Below, in pieces: positions 50,461 to 61,592 of a stretch of DNA of 64,000 bases. The position numbers were made by a program, and so were the translations under genes. The stretch is from Caulobacteraceae bacterium (GTDB lineage: Bacteria; Pseudomonadota; Alphaproteobacteria; Caulobacterales; Caulobacteraceae): positions 1 to 64,000 of the forward strand of contig CANJME010000017.1 in assembly GCA_947475875.1 (NCBI GenBank), in the 5' to 3' direction. How positions within the stretch are numbered: the stretch's first letter is position 1; the number at the start of each line of letters is the position of its first letter. The notes beneath the pieces were generated by a model. That model made no database searches, had not been told where the DNA came from, and worked only from the letters and a program-made list of their open reading frames with translations.

Positions 50461-50940
50461 TTACTTGCCCTTGGCAGCCGTCCCGCAGGTCGACCGAACC
50501 CACTTGGCGCTCACCGATTCATGCACGACGGTCTTTTTGGCCGGATCGGCTGCGTCGGTCGTGGTGATGTACCGTTCGATCAGATAGGCGCGCTGGAAAT
50601 TTCCCCAGACCATGCCTTCCGTGACCTTGTTGGGCGTGGCCGCGCAGGTCTCGGCGAAATTCCAGACACCGTCCTTGGGGTCCAGCTCGATCTGGCCGGG
50701 GCAGCCGAGATGGATGGCCAGGCTCACGCCCGCCGGCCTGGGATCGGCGGCGGCGCAGACCATGGAAATGACTGGCCGGCCCGGCCTGGCGTCAACGCCG
50801 GCGCGCCGGTGATCGACGGTCGTAGCGACGCGCCAAAGCCCGGGCCTGAGCGGTTTGATCGCGTCGGTGGGTTTTTGACCGCACGCAACCAGTCCCATCG
50901 CCGCCAGCGCAAGCGCCGCCTGTCTTGCGCCGTTCAACAA
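50461..50940 (-). CDS. DUF3617-like lipoprotein, copy 2
   Basis: 159 residues with lipobox in ALALAAMGLVACGQKP. RPGLWRVATTVDHRRAG corresponds to the GLWE-type opening of DUF3617. Cysteines occur in MVCAAADP, LGCPGQIE, ETCAATP and RSTCGTA, in the positions of the family's disulfides. Family assignment is by pattern. It converges with the hydrolase operon and is followed on the same strand by nothing before the strand switch. Confidence 0.72.
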   Translation of the reverse strand: MLNGARQAALALAAMGLVACGQKPTDAIKPLRPGLWRVATTVDHRRAGVDARPGRPVISMVCAAADPRPAGVSLAIHLGCPGQIELDPKDGVWNFAETCAATPNKVTEGMVWGNFQRAYLIERYITTTDAADPAKKTVVHESVSAKWVRSTCGTAAKGK

Positions 50941-50977: not shown

Positions 50978-51547
50978 CTATTTCGGCGCCGTAGGCATGG
51001 TCGGCATCTTTATCGACATGCCGGAGGGCATGTTGGGCATGCCGGAGATCCTGGCCTCGCCCGGCGCCATGCCGGCCGGGCAGTCGCCCTTGCGCACGGC
51101 GTGAACCGTCATGGTGCGCGATCCGTTCACCGCCGCCTGGGGCGCGCCGCTCGTCTCGCTCTGCAGGGTGACTGTATAGTCAGAGCCGACATTGCCGGTG
51201 ACCGTGCCGGTGGATTTGACGGTTCCGCCTGTCGGCATGGTGCAGGTCGAACTGAAGGTCCAGCCGTCAGCCGTGCGATGGAATTCCCGTTGGGAACAGG
51301 GCATGTCCTTGGGATCCTTGCCGAAACCAGCCGAGGCCGTTGTGGCGTCCAGGCAGATCGAGCTGGTCATCTGCGGTAGGCCCTCGCCCATCATGGTCTG
51401 TTCCCACAGGCCGGCGCCCGGCGTCGGGATGGCCTCGGCGGCAGCCGGCGCGCCCTCGGTCTTGGCCTCGCCGGATCCGGTCTTGCTGCAGGCGGCCAGC
51501 GTCAGGCTGGCGCCGGCCACAGCCAGAATAAACATCGTACGGTTCAT
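50978..51547 (-). CDS. DUF3617-type lipoprotein, copy 3
   Basis: 189 residues: signal MNRTMFILAVAGASLTLAAC, then GAGLWEQTMMGEGLPQ, SICLDATTAS, MPCSQREFHRTADGWTFSST, CTMPTGGTVKS and GNVGSDYTVTLQSETSG. This is the clearest DUF3617 match of the five. It ends in a Met/Pro-rich tail (MPNMPSGMSIKMPTMPTAP). ATG 51547 is preferred to 51553 because GGGG is then eight bases away. Confidence 0.84.
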   Translation of the reverse strand: MNRTMFILAVAGASLTLAACSKTGSGEAKTEGAPAAAEAIPTPGAGLWEQTMMGEGLPQMTSSICLDATTASAGFGKDPKDMPCSQREFHRTADGWTFSSTCTMPTGGTVKSTGTVTGNVGSDYTVTLQSETSGAPQAAVNGSRTMTVHAVRKGDCPAGMAPGEARISGMPNMPSGMSIKMPTMPTAPK

Positions 51548-51617
51548 GGTCATTTCCCCGGGTTATGCGGACGATCAGCTTAGGCGAGCTTTCCGGGCGG
51601 AGATAGTCCCCGCGCCG

Positions 51618-55813: not shown

Positions 55814-56296
55814 TTAATGGCAGATCTTGTCGATCCACTGCGCCTGCAGGGACTGGCGCACCACCCCGTTGCGGGCCGAATCGGTGGCCCCGCTCGTCGT
55901 CAGCGTCATCTGCACGCTGTAGCGGTCCTTGAAGTCGCCGGTTGCGGTTCCCGAGATGGTGACCGTCTCTCCGGACGGCGAAGGGCAGGTCTTGTTGAAC
56001 GTCCAGCTCGGCGGCGGTCCCGAAAACGTCAAAGGCCCGAAACATCCGGGCGGCAGATTGACCGGCAGATCGGTGGCGCCCTTGGGCGTTGGATCGACAC
56101 ACTGGGTGGTCGTCGCCACCCCACCGTTGAGAACCAGGGCCTCGCTGGTCATGGTCAGGCGCCAGAGCCCAGGCCGGCGTCCGCTCCAGGTGGGTTTCGC
56201 GGGCCCGCAACCGGTGGCGAGCGCCACGACCAGCAGCGCCCCCATCCGCCAGCGCCCGCTTGATCGGTTAAGGGCCTCAGGCAAAGTGGGCCTCAT
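55814..56296 (-). CDS. DUF3617-like lipoprotein, copy 4
   Basis: About 160 residues with lipobox in MGALLVVALATGCGP. Pattern: RRPGLWRLTMTSEALV, TTQCVDPTP, PPGCFGPLTF, WTFNKTCPSPSGE and QWIDKICH, agreeing with copies 1-3 and 5. ATG 56296 adds a basic n-region (MRPTLPEALNRSSGRWR) ahead of the hydrophobic core; ATG 56245 is the alternative. With 56296 its start codon overlaps the divergent ATG at 56295. Confidence 0.72.
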   Translation of the reverse strand: MRPTLPEALNRSSGRWRMGALLVVALATGCGPAKPTWSGRRPGLWRLTMTSEALVLNGGVATTTQCVDPTPKGATDLPVNLPPGCFGPLTFSGPPPSWTFNKTCPSPSGETVTISGTATGDFKDRYSVQMTLTTSGATDSARNGVVRQSLQAQWIDKICH

Positions 56297-56816
56297 GAAG
56301 CTGCTGACATCGCGACATCTGAGGGGTCCCAATATTCACGGCTCGACCTCGGGTCTTCTGGCGACGATCGTCTGGGGTGGCGCCGAAAAGCCCCTCCTGG
56401 AATGGAAGCCGGGCGCCGGGTTTGCCGCCAGGCTGGGGCAGGCGCTGACCCTTGCGCCGGACGCTGCGCTTCTGCAAGCCGGGGATCGGGTCGTGGCGGG
56501 ATCGCCGCCGTTTTTCGAACTGATCTTCGTCGTGTTCGATCATCTAACCCGGGACTACAGCCTGCGACAGGCGGCCGGGCGCATCGTCTCGCGGGGCGAA
56601 GATCAGGTCCAGGTCTTTCTGCCGTGCGACGAAAACCGCATCGCCACTTCGGCGCTGGTCTTTGCGCTGATGGCGGGCGAGGCGGTCGCGAGAAGCGCTG
56701 GACCTCCTGATCTGGCGGAAAAATACAACCAGGTGCAAGCGTTCCTTCGCAGCGAGGGCCTCGCAGCCCCGTCGATGGCGCTGGCGCGCGCCGCACTTGC
56801 CCCGTGCATCGTCTGA
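56295..56816 (+). CDS. Cyanophycin-synthetase-like N-domain, separate ORF
   Basis: 173 residues starting MKLLTSRHLRGPNIHG, which matches the beginning of cyanophycin synthetase CphA (K-x-L-x-x-R-x-L-R-G-P-N-I-W). The rest has LFVVFDHLTRDYSLRQAA-type sequence (residues about 80-100) and DQVQVFLPCDENRIATSAL. In CphA this N-domain is fused to the ligase domains and holds the growing polymer. Here it stops at 56816 and overlaps the next ORF by 13 bases. Divergent from DUF3617 copy 4. Confidence 0.75.
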   Translation: MKLLTSRHLRGPNIHGSTSGLLATIVWGGAEKPLLEWKPGAGFAARLGQALTLAPDAALLQAGDRVVAGSPPFFELIFVVFDHLTRDYSLRQAAGRIVSRGEDQVQVFLPCDENRIATSALVFALMAGEAVARSAGPPDLAEKYNQVQAFLRSEGLAAPSMALARAALAPCIV

Positions 56817-58663
56817 CCCGGCAAATCCAGGTGCAGGCGCTGGGCGAGGGCGCTCATGTGCGCCGGGTCATCAACGGCGCGGCCGACGAGACCGGGGTCT
56901 CGGCAGCACTGATATCGGCCGACGATCACCTCACCCTTTCGGTTCTGCGGCGTCAAACCCTGCCGACTCCGGAGTGGGATCTGGCAAACACGCCACGCCA
57001 GGCCGAGCGGCTGGCGGGAACCCTGGGCTATCCGCTGACGGTCAGGCCCCGAAAGGGCGGCCGCAGGGCGATGATCCTCGTCGAGAGCGAGGCCGGGCTG
57101 GCCGAGGCGCTGGTACAGGCCGGTCCGATCCGGGACGGCGTCCTCATGGAGCGCCCCCTCGAAGGTCTGGATCACAGCCTGCGGGTGAGCGGCGGCCGGT
57201 GTCTACCAGTCGGCGCCGCCGCGGCCCATCCTGAAAACCGCATCCTGGCCGAGCGGGCGGCGCGGGTGATCGGGCTTGGCAACGCGGACGTGGTCATTCG
57301 AACGCCGGATATCGCCGCCTCGTGGCGCGAGACCCCCGGTGTGATTCTGCAGGTCAAGGCGCCGCCCGGCGCCCTGGCCCCACCCACCTCGCTCGTTCGC
57401 GAAAGCCCGCTCGCGACGCTGGAGCGGCTGTTCCCCGGCGGCTGCAACGGCCGGATACCCACGGTCGGGGTGACCGGCAGTCTCGGCAAGTCGACCACCT
57501 GCCACATGGTCGCAGCCATATTGGACAAGGCCGGCTGGGTGGTCGGCCGGTCGACCACCCAGGGCGCCTGGATTGGCGAGGAGAAGATCCTTACCGGAGA
57601 CTATGCCGGGGGTGGCGCGGCCACGAGCCTGCTGCTCGACCCGACGGTGGAGGCCGGCGTCTTCGAACTCGCCCGCGGGGGGCTGGCCCGATACGGCATG
57701 GTTATCGACGGCGTCGATGTCGGGGCCATGCTCAATGTCCACGACAATCATCTGGGTCTGGACGGGATCAATACCCGTGAGGAACTGGCCGAGGTGAAGG
57801 GCCTGGTGGTGCGTCATGCCCGCAGGCTTGCCATCCTCAACGCGGACGATCCCCTGTGCCTGCAGATGCGCGAGCGAGTCACCGCACCCAGGGTCTGTCT
57901 GATCTCGACGGCGGCCCGCAACGCCACTGTGCGCGAGCATCAGGCCGCAGGCGGGGCGGCCGGTCTGCTGGTGAGGTCGGACGCAGACGACCGGCTCACG
58001 GAAATCCGCCTGTTCGAGGGCGAGAGGCTGATCGGCTCCATGACGGCGGGCGAGATTCCGACCAGCCTTGGCGGCCGGTTTGAGCCGCCGTTGACCAATG
58101 CCCTCTACGCCGCCGCCGTCGCTTACGGCCTGGGCGTGGATTTCGAGGTGACCCGTGCGGCGCTCAGCGGCTTTGAATCGACCCAGGAGACCAACCCGTT
58201 CCGGATGAACCTGTTCGAGGGTTTTGCCTGCCCGTTGTGGCTCACCTGGGCGGACGGGCCCGCGCCCTTTGCCGCGCTCGGCCGATTTGTGGCGAACACG
58301 TCGGCGGAAGGATCGAAAATCCTGATGTTCAGCATGATGGGCGATCGTACCGACGCTTTCATGGAAGAGACCATGGCCGCTCTGGCCGCCGTCGATGCGT
58401 TTGACCACTACGTCGTCAGCGACTGGGACCTGCTGCGCGGCCGGGAGCCGGGCGAGGCGTGCGAGCGGCTGATCGCATGGCTCACGTCCGGCGGCGTCGC
58501 CTCCGACCGGATCACACGCGCCGGCAGTTATGATGAAGCGTGCGATTTAACCCTGGCCCGCGGCCGGCCGGGTGACCTGGTGGTGATCATTACGCCCCGC
58601 ATCGGCGGCGAGCGGCTGGTCAGGAAGCTTGAGGCCCTGAGGGGCGCTGTGGCTCACCCCTGA
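56804..58663 (+). CDS. Cyanophycin-synthetase-like ligase (short ATP-grasp + Mur domain)
   Basis: 619 residues. The start (QVQALGEGAHVRRVINGA) corresponds to the CphA segment before its ATP-grasp domain. ATP-grasp remains (YPLTVRPRKGGRRAMI, DGVLMERPLEGLDHSLRVSG) but a block of about 60-70 residues seen in CphA seems missing before AERAARVIGLGNADVVIRTPD. The Mur half keeps VGVTGSLGKSTTCHMV (normally GTNGKTTT), ELARGGLARYGMVIDGVDVG, NVHDNHLGLDGINT and NADDP, but the usual DYAHNP is TWADGPAP and the region GDRRDE reads GDRTDA. Substrate likely differs from Asp/Arg. Its end overlaps the Rieske gene by 44 bases, convergent. Confidence 0.72.
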   Translation: MHRLTRQIQVQALGEGAHVRRVINGAADETGVSAALISADDHLTLSVLRRQTLPTPEWDLANTPRQAERLAGTLGYPLTVRPRKGGRRAMILVESEAGLAEALVQAGPIRDGVLMERPLEGLDHSLRVSGGRCLPVGAAAAHPENRILAERAARVIGLGNADVVIRTPDIAASWRETPGVILQVKAPPGALAPPTSLVRESPLATLERLFPGGCNGRIPTVGVTGSLGKSTTCHMVAAILDKAGWVVGRSTTQGAWIGEEKILTGDYAGGGAATSLLLDPTVEAGVFELARGGLARYGMVIDGVDVGAMLNVHDNHLGLDGINTREELAEVKGLVVRHARRLAILNADDPLCLQMRERVTAPRVCLISTAARNATVREHQAAGGAAGLLVRSDADDRLTEIRLFEGERLIGSMTAGEIPTSLGGRFEPPLTNALYAAAVAYGLGVDFEVTRAALSGFESTQETNPFRMNLFEGFACPLWLTWADGPAPFAALGRFVANTSAEGSKILMFSMMGDRTDAFMEETMAALAAVDAFDHYVVSDWDLLRGREPGEACERLIAWLTSGGVASDRITRAGSYDEACDLTLARGRPGDLVVIITPRIGGERLVRKLEALRGAVAHP

Positions 58664-59789: not shown

Positions 59790-59903
59790 GCGCGGCCAGG
59801 CGGCAGGGTGGCGAAAGGCGCGGTCCAGTCAAGCCGCGTCAGCCACCGGACACAGCGGATTTTTCTCGCGCCCGGCGCTTGGCCTCCCGTGCGCGACCCA
59901 GGC

Positions 59904-61088
59904 CTATCTCACCGCCGTCGGCCTCGCCGCCTGTTCGGCCGCGCGGGCCCCGGCCAGCATGTCTTCCATGGCGTAGTTGCCTTCGTGGCAGGCGTATTCC
60001 TCAACCCGCATGCCGCGGGGCAAGGCCGAAAACTCGTATTCACCGCCCCAGGCCGCGTCCCAGGTGTCCGGGTCCTCGATGGTGAACTGGTAGAGCAGTC
60101 GCGTGGGAGCGACGCGGGTGAACTTCTCGGTCACCTTCAGATTGCGCCATGAGGTGTTGTAGGCCTGGCTCTGCGGAATGTTGGTGGTCTCCACCACCAG
60201 GGTCTCGCCCTCGTAGTGGCCGATGGTATCGCCGAACCAGGGACGCACGCCGTCGGTGCGGTGCTTGCCGCCCAGCCGCACGATACGCGCGTCGTGGACC
60301 ATCTCGGACATGATCGCCACCGAGTCCTTGCCCTGCGCGATCTGGTAGTTGTTGTTGTAAAAGCCATTGGGCAGCATCGGCGGGCCGGCGTTGCGGCCGA
60401 ACGAGACCAGGCACCGGTCGCCGTTGGGCATGGATTCCGGATTGTCCATCGCGCCGCCTCGCGCCGGAACAGTCACCGCGCCCCTGGCCGGTGCGCCGGC
60501 CGCCGGCGCCGCGCCTGCCCGCGCGGGCGCCGCGCCGCCACGCGCCGGAACCCCGCCGCCTCTGGCCGGCGTCGCCGCGGCCACCGCACCTTTTCGCGCC
60601 GGAACCTGGCCGTTCGGCGTGGTGATCAGCGAATTGCGCGACTCGCCCCGCACCCGCATGACGAAGGTGCCGGGGTCCATGAAGCCGCGGTCATAGTTGC
60701 CGGCGATCCCCGGTCCGCCACGGGCCAGGATGACGCCGTCGGTCAGGGGTTTGGTATTGTCGATGCGCTTGTTGCCGGCCTCGATGCCGTCCTGCAGGGC
60801 GCCTTCGAGCTTCGCCACCTCTTCGGCCGTGTAGGTCGAGCGGGTTCCAAAACTGGCGACGCGGCTGGTGGGTGTGATTGTCGCGTTTGACCAGGCGCCG
60901 CTGAAATCCGGCTGACCGAAGCTGTTGTGAGGGGCCTTCCAGGCCCCGGCCTTCGCTGGTGCGGGCGCTTTCGCGGCCGGCGCCGCGGCTTTCGCCGGGG
61001 CCGGCGCCTTGGCGGTTTGCGCCAGAGCGAGTGGCGCTAACGCGGCAGTTACGGTGAGTGCGGCGATCAGGATCGTGGACTTGGTCAT
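59904..61088 (-). CDS. Secreted protein with an Ala/Pro/Arg-Gly insert, function unknown
   Basis: 394 residues with a signal peptide (MTKSTILIAALTVTAALAPL...ALAQ), an AKAPAPAK low-complexity linker to about residue 48, a domain starting NSFGQPDFSGAWSN, a long repeat of PARGGAAPARAGAAPA-like units (about 163-210), and a conserved C-terminal part (ESMPNGDRCLV, NGFYNNNYQIAQG, WFGDTIGHYEGETLVVETTN). Such GQPDFSG-W proteins are common in Acidobacteria and Caulobacterales with no assigned activity. The insert divides an otherwise continuous domain. Confidence 0.7.
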   Translation of the reverse strand: MTKSTILIAALTVTAALAPLALAQTAKAPAPAKAAAPAAKAPAPAKAGAWKAPHNSFGQPDFSGAWSNATITPTSRVASFGTRSTYTAEEVAKLEGALQDGIEAGNKRIDNTKPLTDGVILARGGPGIAGNYDRGFMDPGTFVMRVRGESRNSLITTPNGQVPARKGAVAAATPARGGGVPARGGAAPARAGAAPAAGAPARGAVTVPARGGAMDNPESMPNGDRCLVSFGRNAGPPMLPNGFYNNNYQIAQGKDSVAIMSEMVHDARIVRLGGKHRTDGVRPWFGDTIGHYEGETLVVETTNIPQSQAYNTSWRNLKVTEKFTRVAPTRLLYQFTIEDPDTWDAAWGGEYEFSALPRGMRVEEYACHEGNYAMEDMLAGARAAEQAARPTAVR

Positions 61089-61142: not shown

Positions 61143-61592
61143 CTAGGGTTGAGTTGAGGGCTGGCAGGTGTCGCTCAGCCACACCGCCTGGGTCGTCTGC
61201 ACCACGGGTTTGACGTCAGCCGGCGCGTCCGGGTTGCCGACCGTCATGCGGATTTCATAGCTGTCCTGGAAATTGCCGCTGACCGTTCCCAGAAAGCGGG
61301 TCGTCACCTTGGGTGCGATGGGGCAGGTTATCTGGAACACCCAGCGCTTGTCCCGGACATCGAAGTTGATCGGTCCGTCACAGCCGGGCGGAAAGGCGAC
61401 CGGAACGTCGAGAACATCGTCTTTTTCGGGCAAGACGCACTGCTCGACCACGCTGTCGGTAGTCGCCGTGCTGTGGGTGATCAGGCGCCACAGCCCTGGC
61501 TTGCGGCCCTTCCAGAAATCCTGGGCTTTCGGCGGCGGGGCGCAGCCGCTGACCAGGATCATCAACAGCACCGCCCACCCGGCCTTGCTCAT
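61143..61592 (-). CDS. DUF3617-like lipoprotein, copy 5
   Basis: 149 residues with lipobox in MSKAGWAVLLMILVSGCAPP. RKPGLWRLITHSTATTD is followed by EQCVLPEKDD, PPGCDGPINF, VFQITCPIAP and LSDTCQPS, again the five-cysteine DUF3617 pattern; closest in appearance to copy 4 (PPGCxGPxxF). It is followed upstream by a divergent GFA gene. Confidence 0.74.
   Translation of the reverse strand: MSKAGWAVLLMILVSGCAPPPKAQDFWKGRKPGLWRLITHSTATTDSVVEQCVLPEKDDVLDVPVAFPPGCDGPINFDVRDKRWVFQITCPIAPKVTTRFLGTVSGNFQDSYEIRMTVGNPDAPADVKPVVQTTQAVWLSDTCQPSTQP

Follow-up and report, generated by a model that had tools for sequence, protein, structure and literature searches.

Cyanophycin synthetase (CphA) is a natural two-site polymerase, and relatives with one site removed show which half can live alone, providing ready-made candidates for single-bond amide ligases. 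In Mur ligases, as in the M (Mur-ligase) domain of CphA, Mg-ATP activates a carboxylate that is then attacked by an amine. CphA2, the known one-site case, presumably keeps the G (ATP-grasp) domain, loses M, and acts through the G site. Passages of PMC10206079 describe CphA2 as joining beta-Asp-Arg dipeptides, and PMC9427784 divides the G domain of TeCphA1 into Gcore, Glid, and Gω (residues 325-399, aspartate recognition) and reports that alanine changes at E215, R309, R323, N394, and R458 impair its activity. Here, we examined a window of 64,000 nucleotides, part of contig 17 (CANJME010000017.1) in the draft genome of a Caulobacteraceae bacterium (assembly GCA_947475875.1; 2.85 Mb in 49 contigs), with a focus on two overlapping open reading frames (ORFs), ORF1 and ORF2, that resemble a divided CphA. 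We consider it close to an even call that they represent an N-G-M enzyme that descends from CphA and has a single working site left, a predicted Mur-type ATP-dependent amide ligase and the mirror image of CphA2.

An earlier note on this DNA had held that the pair recalls CphA in order, and we confirm by sequence and predicted fold that ORF1 encodes the N domain and ORF2 the G and M domains, which together read as the CphA domain order N-G-M. By blastp, ORF1 corresponds to the N domain of L052, a homologue described below (E = 1e-8 within a small local set), and alignment A3 agrees. Its AlphaFold model (predicted local distance difference test, pLDDT, 77) retrieved eight Protein Data Bank (PDB) matches at E ≤ 0.001, all of them cyanophycin synthetase chains; because the input was an alignment of CphA N domains, this fold match is not independent of the sequence match. 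A Pfam scan of ORF1 up to E = 1 gave no match. The HxxEH metallopeptidase motif, which PMC9262961 gives as a feature of active CphA1 N domains, is absent from ORF1 in the N-domain alignment. For ORF2, the closest solved structure by PDB sequence search is CphA1 (E = 5e-74), and its confidently predicted model (pLDDT 86; predicted template modelling score, pTM, 0.85) is nearest by fold to CphA1, then to MurE. ORF2 matched Mur_ligase_M (PF08245) with 63.1 bits, above the Pfam cut-off of 24, and Mur_ligase_C (PF02875) with 26.3 bits, just under the cut-off of 28.4; ATP-grasp models reached E = 0.08 or weaker. Its score against the CphA equivalog TIGR02068, from which the ORF1-encoded N domain is missing, was 356.6 bits, below the curated cut-off of 850, compared with 595.6 bits for the fused L052 and 1081.4 bits for a canonical control (L065). 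Codon-position GC (ORF1: 0.72/0.51/0.75; ORF2: 0.71/0.52/0.82) is similar to that of five neighbouring genes.

The G half has lost both its aspartate-recognition module and nearly all of the catalytic and Mg-site residues checked. Site numbers here are those of Te/SuCphA1, counted by hand on the PDB-match alignment, in which E215, H267, and R309 matched the letters expected at those positions. ORF2 has nothing corresponding to TeCphA1 residues 323-404, and across columns 142-237 of alignment A2 the window protein holds 11 residues, against 94 in a canonical Deinococcus CphA and 95 in L052. The loss of an ATP-grasp block, as noted earlier, is therefore real, although the block is larger than the 60-70 residues then proposed. 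R323, N394, and S396 are also missing in the alignment, and G456 is kept. E215 is replaced by Leu in a variable column (Glu in 20 of 38 canonical rows) and the H267 column holds His in 30 of 38; the other named G columns are invariant in the 38. The altered Asp, Glu, and Asn positions (Table 1) are those that we take to form the Mg site of the ATP-grasp. None of the CphA1 G-site features considered (K261, H267, R309, the Mg-site Glu and Asn, and the Gω aspartate site) is retained, and with these G residues gone the functional G domain through which CphA2 joins beta-Asp-Arg dipeptides is absent as well. The G site of ORF2 thus reads as dead, not merely shortened. The preserved N-G-M order over two ORFs could also point to a working two-subunit cyanophycin-type polymerase, i.e., a split CphA, but the backbone-extension residues and module are missing and so is any cyanophycinase-family gene, which makes this reading highly improbable. 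Specifically, the cyanophycinase family (PF03575) had no match in the whole window genome or in G416, the genome of L052, with 10 of 14 control genomes matching; the absence of a nearby cyanophycinase remarked on in the earlier note thus extends to the entire genome.

The M half presents a different picture. Invariant columns, defined as conserved in at least 35 of the 38 rows of the canonical alignment (of 40 selected; without ORFs below 780 codons, rows with unknown residues, near-duplicates, and L085), are kept by the window protein at 61 of 78 positions in M versus 33 of 60 in G outside the block (Fisher p = 0.005), and at 2 of 30 within the block. K499, T500 (as Ser, found also in 16 of 38 canonical rows), T522, E558, H586, and the lid residue R731 are all retained. 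Of these, K499, T500, T522, E558, and R731 have their roles in the M domain, including ATP and Mg contacts, described in PMC9427784. Measured against the CphA1 M site, K499, the Mg ligands T500/T522/E558, and H586 are in place, and D585, H748, and N497 give way to N315, D484, and L227. The two motif readings made previously, the P-loop GSLGKSTT and the replacement of DYAHNP by TWADGPAP, were both borne out. The M site thus appears to keep its ATP and Mg residues but to have a remodelled active site. With the adenine and gamma-phosphate contacts changed (N497, H748), one might instead suspect a non-catalytic CphA-family protein whose Mur fold now acts as a subunit for binding or scaffolding. 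Among the fold matches of ORF2 is a plastid RNA polymerase subunit, presumably a MurE-like protein that is no ligase. Since the P-loop Lys, the Mg ligands, H586, and R731 are all kept, we regard such a non-catalytic role as improbable.

If the window gene is indeed a one-site enzyme, its G site, responsible in CphA for adding Asp to the backbone, would probably serve as a scaffold only, and the M site would still bind Mg-ATP and probably activate a carboxylate as an acyl phosphate, which would then be joined to an amine to give a single amide bond per cycle. Because the ATP/Mg residues are kept and G is dead, a single amide per cycle would be the best-supported chemistry, and the altered D585/H748 region, with its remodelling shared by the fused L052, and the altered N domain suggest that the substrates are not the growing cyanophycin chain and Arg. 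The N domain would today be encoded separately, most likely through a frameshift. The sequence itself shows which domains are present, that the G-site residues are lost, that the M residues for ATP and Mg are kept, and that the remodelling is common to L052. We infer the joint action of the ORF1 and ORF2 products, catalysis, the single amide, the change of substrate, and the cause of the split from these features.

Table 1. Features of the cphA-like gene pair, in window coordinates.
Feature	Position	Strand	Description
ORF1	56295..56816	+	CphA N-domain homologue, 173 aa, starts MKLLTSRHLRGPN; ATG 56295, TGA 56814-56816
ORF2	56804..58663	+	Degenerate G (ATP-grasp) and M (Mur ligase), 619 aa; GTG 56804, TGA 58661-58663
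ORF1/ORF2 junction	56799..56816	+	Different frames; 13-nt overlap, counting the stop codon
Residual G domain	56804..57439 (approximate end)	+	By alignment; K261R, N266/H267 deleted, R309S, Mg-site D->V, E->Q, N->K, R458 deleted
Missing Gω point (approximate)	57212..57226	+	TeCphA1 325-399 (aspartate site) without counterpart
M-domain P-loop TGSLGKST	57473..57496	+	K229 = K499, S230 = T500; L227 replaces adenine-stacking N497
HDNH (residues 313-316)	57740..57751	+	H586 kept, D585->N, Asp one position earlier; common to L052 (HDMH)
TWADGPAP (residues 481-488) for DYAHNP	58244..58267	+	D-G-x-A-P common to L052

L052, on contig C8 of G416 in the same order as the window, encodes 873 residues in one fused ORF with Gω present. 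Its M motifs are TGSVGKTT, HDMH, and DGAAP, and its G residues are mostly kept (E215, K261, R309, R323, N394, S396, Mg-site Asp/Glu/Asn, R458), with N266 as Ser and H267 as Lys; its M lid is eroded. It keeps 45 of 78 invariant columns in M and 44 of 60 in G (M versus G p = 0.07), and 23 of 30 in the block. When columns retained in one protein but not in the other are counted (window/L052), G has 6/17 and M 18/2 (Fisher p = 3.6 × 10−5), and this opposite retention indicates that the window gene and L052 eroded different halves. Of 184 loci examined, 145 had an M-like frame, and the 39 without, many of them ATP-grasp-only or DNA-search matches, were not judged. Among the 145, which count the window locus and the L052 locus three times each, only these two genes carry the altered motifs HD-x-HL, DG-x-AP, and GG-x-AATS. 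An M-domain tree of 48 rows placed them together at 100/99, apart from 46 CphA and CphA-like rows, and they grouped again in a second tree with 33 other rows (35 rows in all), the rows of both trees being a selected subset. Furthermore, the two share 28 residues in M and 2 in G that each occur in no more than 1 of 38 canonical rows; in M, none of 464 canonical pairs with identities up to 45% exceeded 5, these pairs being set against 36 other rows and the window pair against 38. Both proteins depart from the invariant residue at 21 gapless columns, and at 6 of these they have changed to the same one (shuffle mean 1.3, p = 0.0009). In terms of sequence, the two genes form a sister lineage with a common remodelling of M. 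Long-branch attraction was considered for this pairing and seems unlikely given the 28 shared private residues.

Several observations weigh against a surviving one-site ligase. D585, D745, H748, N749, and the adenine-contact residue N497 of the M site are replaced, N497 and H748 being present in all 38 canonical rows, and the double change D585A/H586A is given in PMC9262961 as the means used to kill the SuCphA1 M site. The window form was found in one genome only, with both congeners searched without recovering the gene, and none of the 16 other window genes tested recurs at the L052 locus. The M domains of the window protein and L052 are only 36-38% identical, the highest M identity of the window protein being to an ordinary CphA (L055, 41-42%), and the L052 branch is long (2.0, flagged by the tree tool).

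Some of these points also serve the main rival, a decaying former cphA-like gene in which the broken frame, the lost Gω, and the inactive G would be stages of decay with M lagging behind: the single genome and gene-free congeners, the changes at several M-site residues, the missing cyanophycinase-family gene, and a frame broken where that of the sister L052 is continuous would all be expected of it. However, 619 codons remain open with normal codon-position GC, the 61 of 78 retained M columns speak of uneven retention between G and M, the 28 M residues are shared with a distant sister and almost no canonical row, and the predicted fold is confident. Overall, we consider decay unlikely, though it is the alternative that we take most seriously.

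The division of the gene into two frames requires separate treatment. The end of ORF1 homology and the start of ORF2 homology fall on adjacent L052 positions, so that homology is gapless across the junction, and by the domain limits in PMC9427784, where the TeCphA1 G domain starts at 162, the cut misses the N/G boundary and falls some 18 residues into Gcore. A cut inside Gcore is not the place expected for an evolved domain split. The same cut is absent from the 39 other N-domain alignment rows, all of them ORFs with G and M, although no systematic search for split genes was made. The best Shine-Dalgarno-like match covers 2 of 6 bases before the ORF2 GTG versus 4 of 6 before the ORF1 ATG. With continuous homology, a cut within Gcore, and a fused ORF in the only sister, L052, the split is not supported as a design feature; it is probably a frameshift, either mutational or technical. 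Programmed frameshifting was not favoured, as a heptamer scan of the sequence found no strict XXXYYYZ slippery heptamer starting at 56740-56812. As to the split itself, a sequencing or assembly error in a gene of one continuous frame is a real possibility, compatible with the other readings, although we lean towards other causes: gapless homology, the fused sister, a draft assembly of 49 contigs, and the 2-of-6 match before GTG are all consistent with it, but the Gω loss and the dead G residues are independent of the junction. The conclusions on G and M are independent of how the split arose.

The combination of G loss with M retention is not unique to the window gene, since it recurs in Deinococcus paralogs and in ORFs beside cphA. 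Deinococcus plasmids carry CphA paralogs with G eroded or deleted and M kept (L182:5392-7891, L183:5080-7596, L184:4176-6350). The D. taeanensis protein (WP_225523393.1) retains 31 residues of the block region, with K261R, H267A, R309H, and Mg-site E->A and N->R changes; the Mg-site Asp is kept, and all M residues checked are intact. That of D. deserti (WP_012695043.1) lacks nearly all of G. In Deinococcus sp. KNUC1210, the gene for WP_239051849.1 comes immediately after cphA and the genes for an isoaspartyl peptidase and a cyanophycinase. The alignment shows E215, R309, R323, R458, and one Mg-site Asp in place in its product, with K261R and two Mg positions altered; its own reading frame is interrupted ahead of the M lid, which lies in a second ORF. 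In the 35-row tree, the proteins of D. taeanensis and D. deserti cluster with ordinary CphA rather than with the window protein, suggesting that their G loss was independent.

Beyond Deinococcus, at 40 of 42 loci (L007-L048) a frame of 521-676 codons with the M motifs TGTNGK[ST] and D-F-A/G-HN adjoins the end of cphA, its start ranging from 252 nt upstream to 20 nt downstream of where the cphA frame stops; at the remaining two, the contig runs out 11 and 0 nt beyond that point. The 42 loci were picked by peptide patterns from the window protein, and the proportion is not a survey of all cphA genes. Four such ORFs that were aligned (examples from the loci: L010:7252-8970 and L036:7271-9115) lack a G domain, their start (RRLTGPN) resembling that of CphA, and NCBIfam gave the two tested only CphA matches below cut-off. 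A full-text literature search, with most subscription papers outside its scope, showed no description of such M-only proteins among the papers listed; the word 'Mur' is absent from the available text of PMC10206079 and PMC10687191, the latter of which mentions clusters with two cphA copies. Separately, the phylum sample contains about 15 other Pseudomonadota genomes where the best cphA match has as its neighbour a second CphA-like gene of about 720-910 codons (L158, L159, L160, L161, and others). CphA2 being the known one-site case, this M-only set, including the ORFs beside cphA, adds candidates. As a tentative and rather doubtful proposal, G loss with M kept may define a recurrent, unnamed class of one-step amide ligases, a state that the window gene would have reached on its own from the L052-shared lineage with a rebuilt M and with a substrate outside cyanophycin metabolism.

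We also examined the wider distribution of CphA-like matches in whole-genome samples, which overlap and whose counts include the window's own genome where it was drawn. Matches were found in 5 of 60 relatives (E ≤ 0.001); at E ≤ 1e-30 in 36 of 348 genomes of the family, 26 of 398 of the order, 1 of 105 of L052's own family (L052 itself), and, with L052 as query, 31 of 385 of the class, many with G only; and at E ≤ 1e-40 in 25 of 349 genomes of the phylum and 6 of 137 of a third family. The matched genomes G879, G941, G861, and G985 (family sample) and G734 (class sample) lie outside the locus comparison, as do several second matches in the order, class, family, and phylum samples. Profile matches to 43 stretches of viral contigs included no relative, and a motif pattern scan found none either; five phage records gave weak partial matches to ORF2. 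Elsewhere in the window genome, Mur_ligase_M has five further matches, four of which lie near one another on contig C2.

The gene is flanked by two glycosyltransferase-like genes (one by a sub-cut-off Pfam match, one by resemblance), an alpha/beta hydrolase, a sulfotransferase, DUF3617 proteins, and a Rieske oxygenase. Homologues of the hydrolases, glycosyltransferase, sulfotransferase, and Rieske genes lie on one contig of a congener (G001), in another order and without a cphA-like gene. The gene neighbourhood was dropped as a functional clue, because this congener has several of the neighbours without the gene and the L052 locus has none of them. Small similar-looking proteins surround the gene at 50461-50940, 50978-51553, 55814-56332, and 61143-61592; Pfam assigns DUF3617 to the third above and to the first below cut-off, and the other two were assigned by eye. 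A 394-residue protein with no Pfam match (59904-61088, minus strand) seems to belong to a large paralogous family, the DNA at 59903-60951 accounting for most of the 35 and 30 matches in two congeners.

Compared with known systems, the window protein resembles MurE in the fold of its M half (1e8c, Foldseek E = 7.5e-22) and differs from it in sequence (19% identity). It shares with CphA1 (TIGR02068; PDB 7wac, 7lg5, 7lgm, 7lgn) the N-G-M order, the fold, the M P-loop, and the Mg ligands, but lacks Gω, the G catalytic residues, and HxxEH, and has an altered M site and an N domain in a separate frame. L052 is its sister in the M tree, with the same altered motifs and private M residues, and departs from it in having one fused ORF, Gω and most G residues, and an eroded M lid. 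The Deinococcus paralogs likewise miss most of Gω or most of G and keep M, but with canonical M motifs. CphA2 (PDB 7ta5, 8fxh) is likewise a CphA relative with a single active site and an N domain without the peptidase motif; its PDB matches to L052 end inside M, in line with the M loss that we assume for it. The contrast drawn earlier, with the Mur half lost in CphA2 and the ATP-grasp half lost here, holds at the sequence level: the window protein keeps M and loses G.

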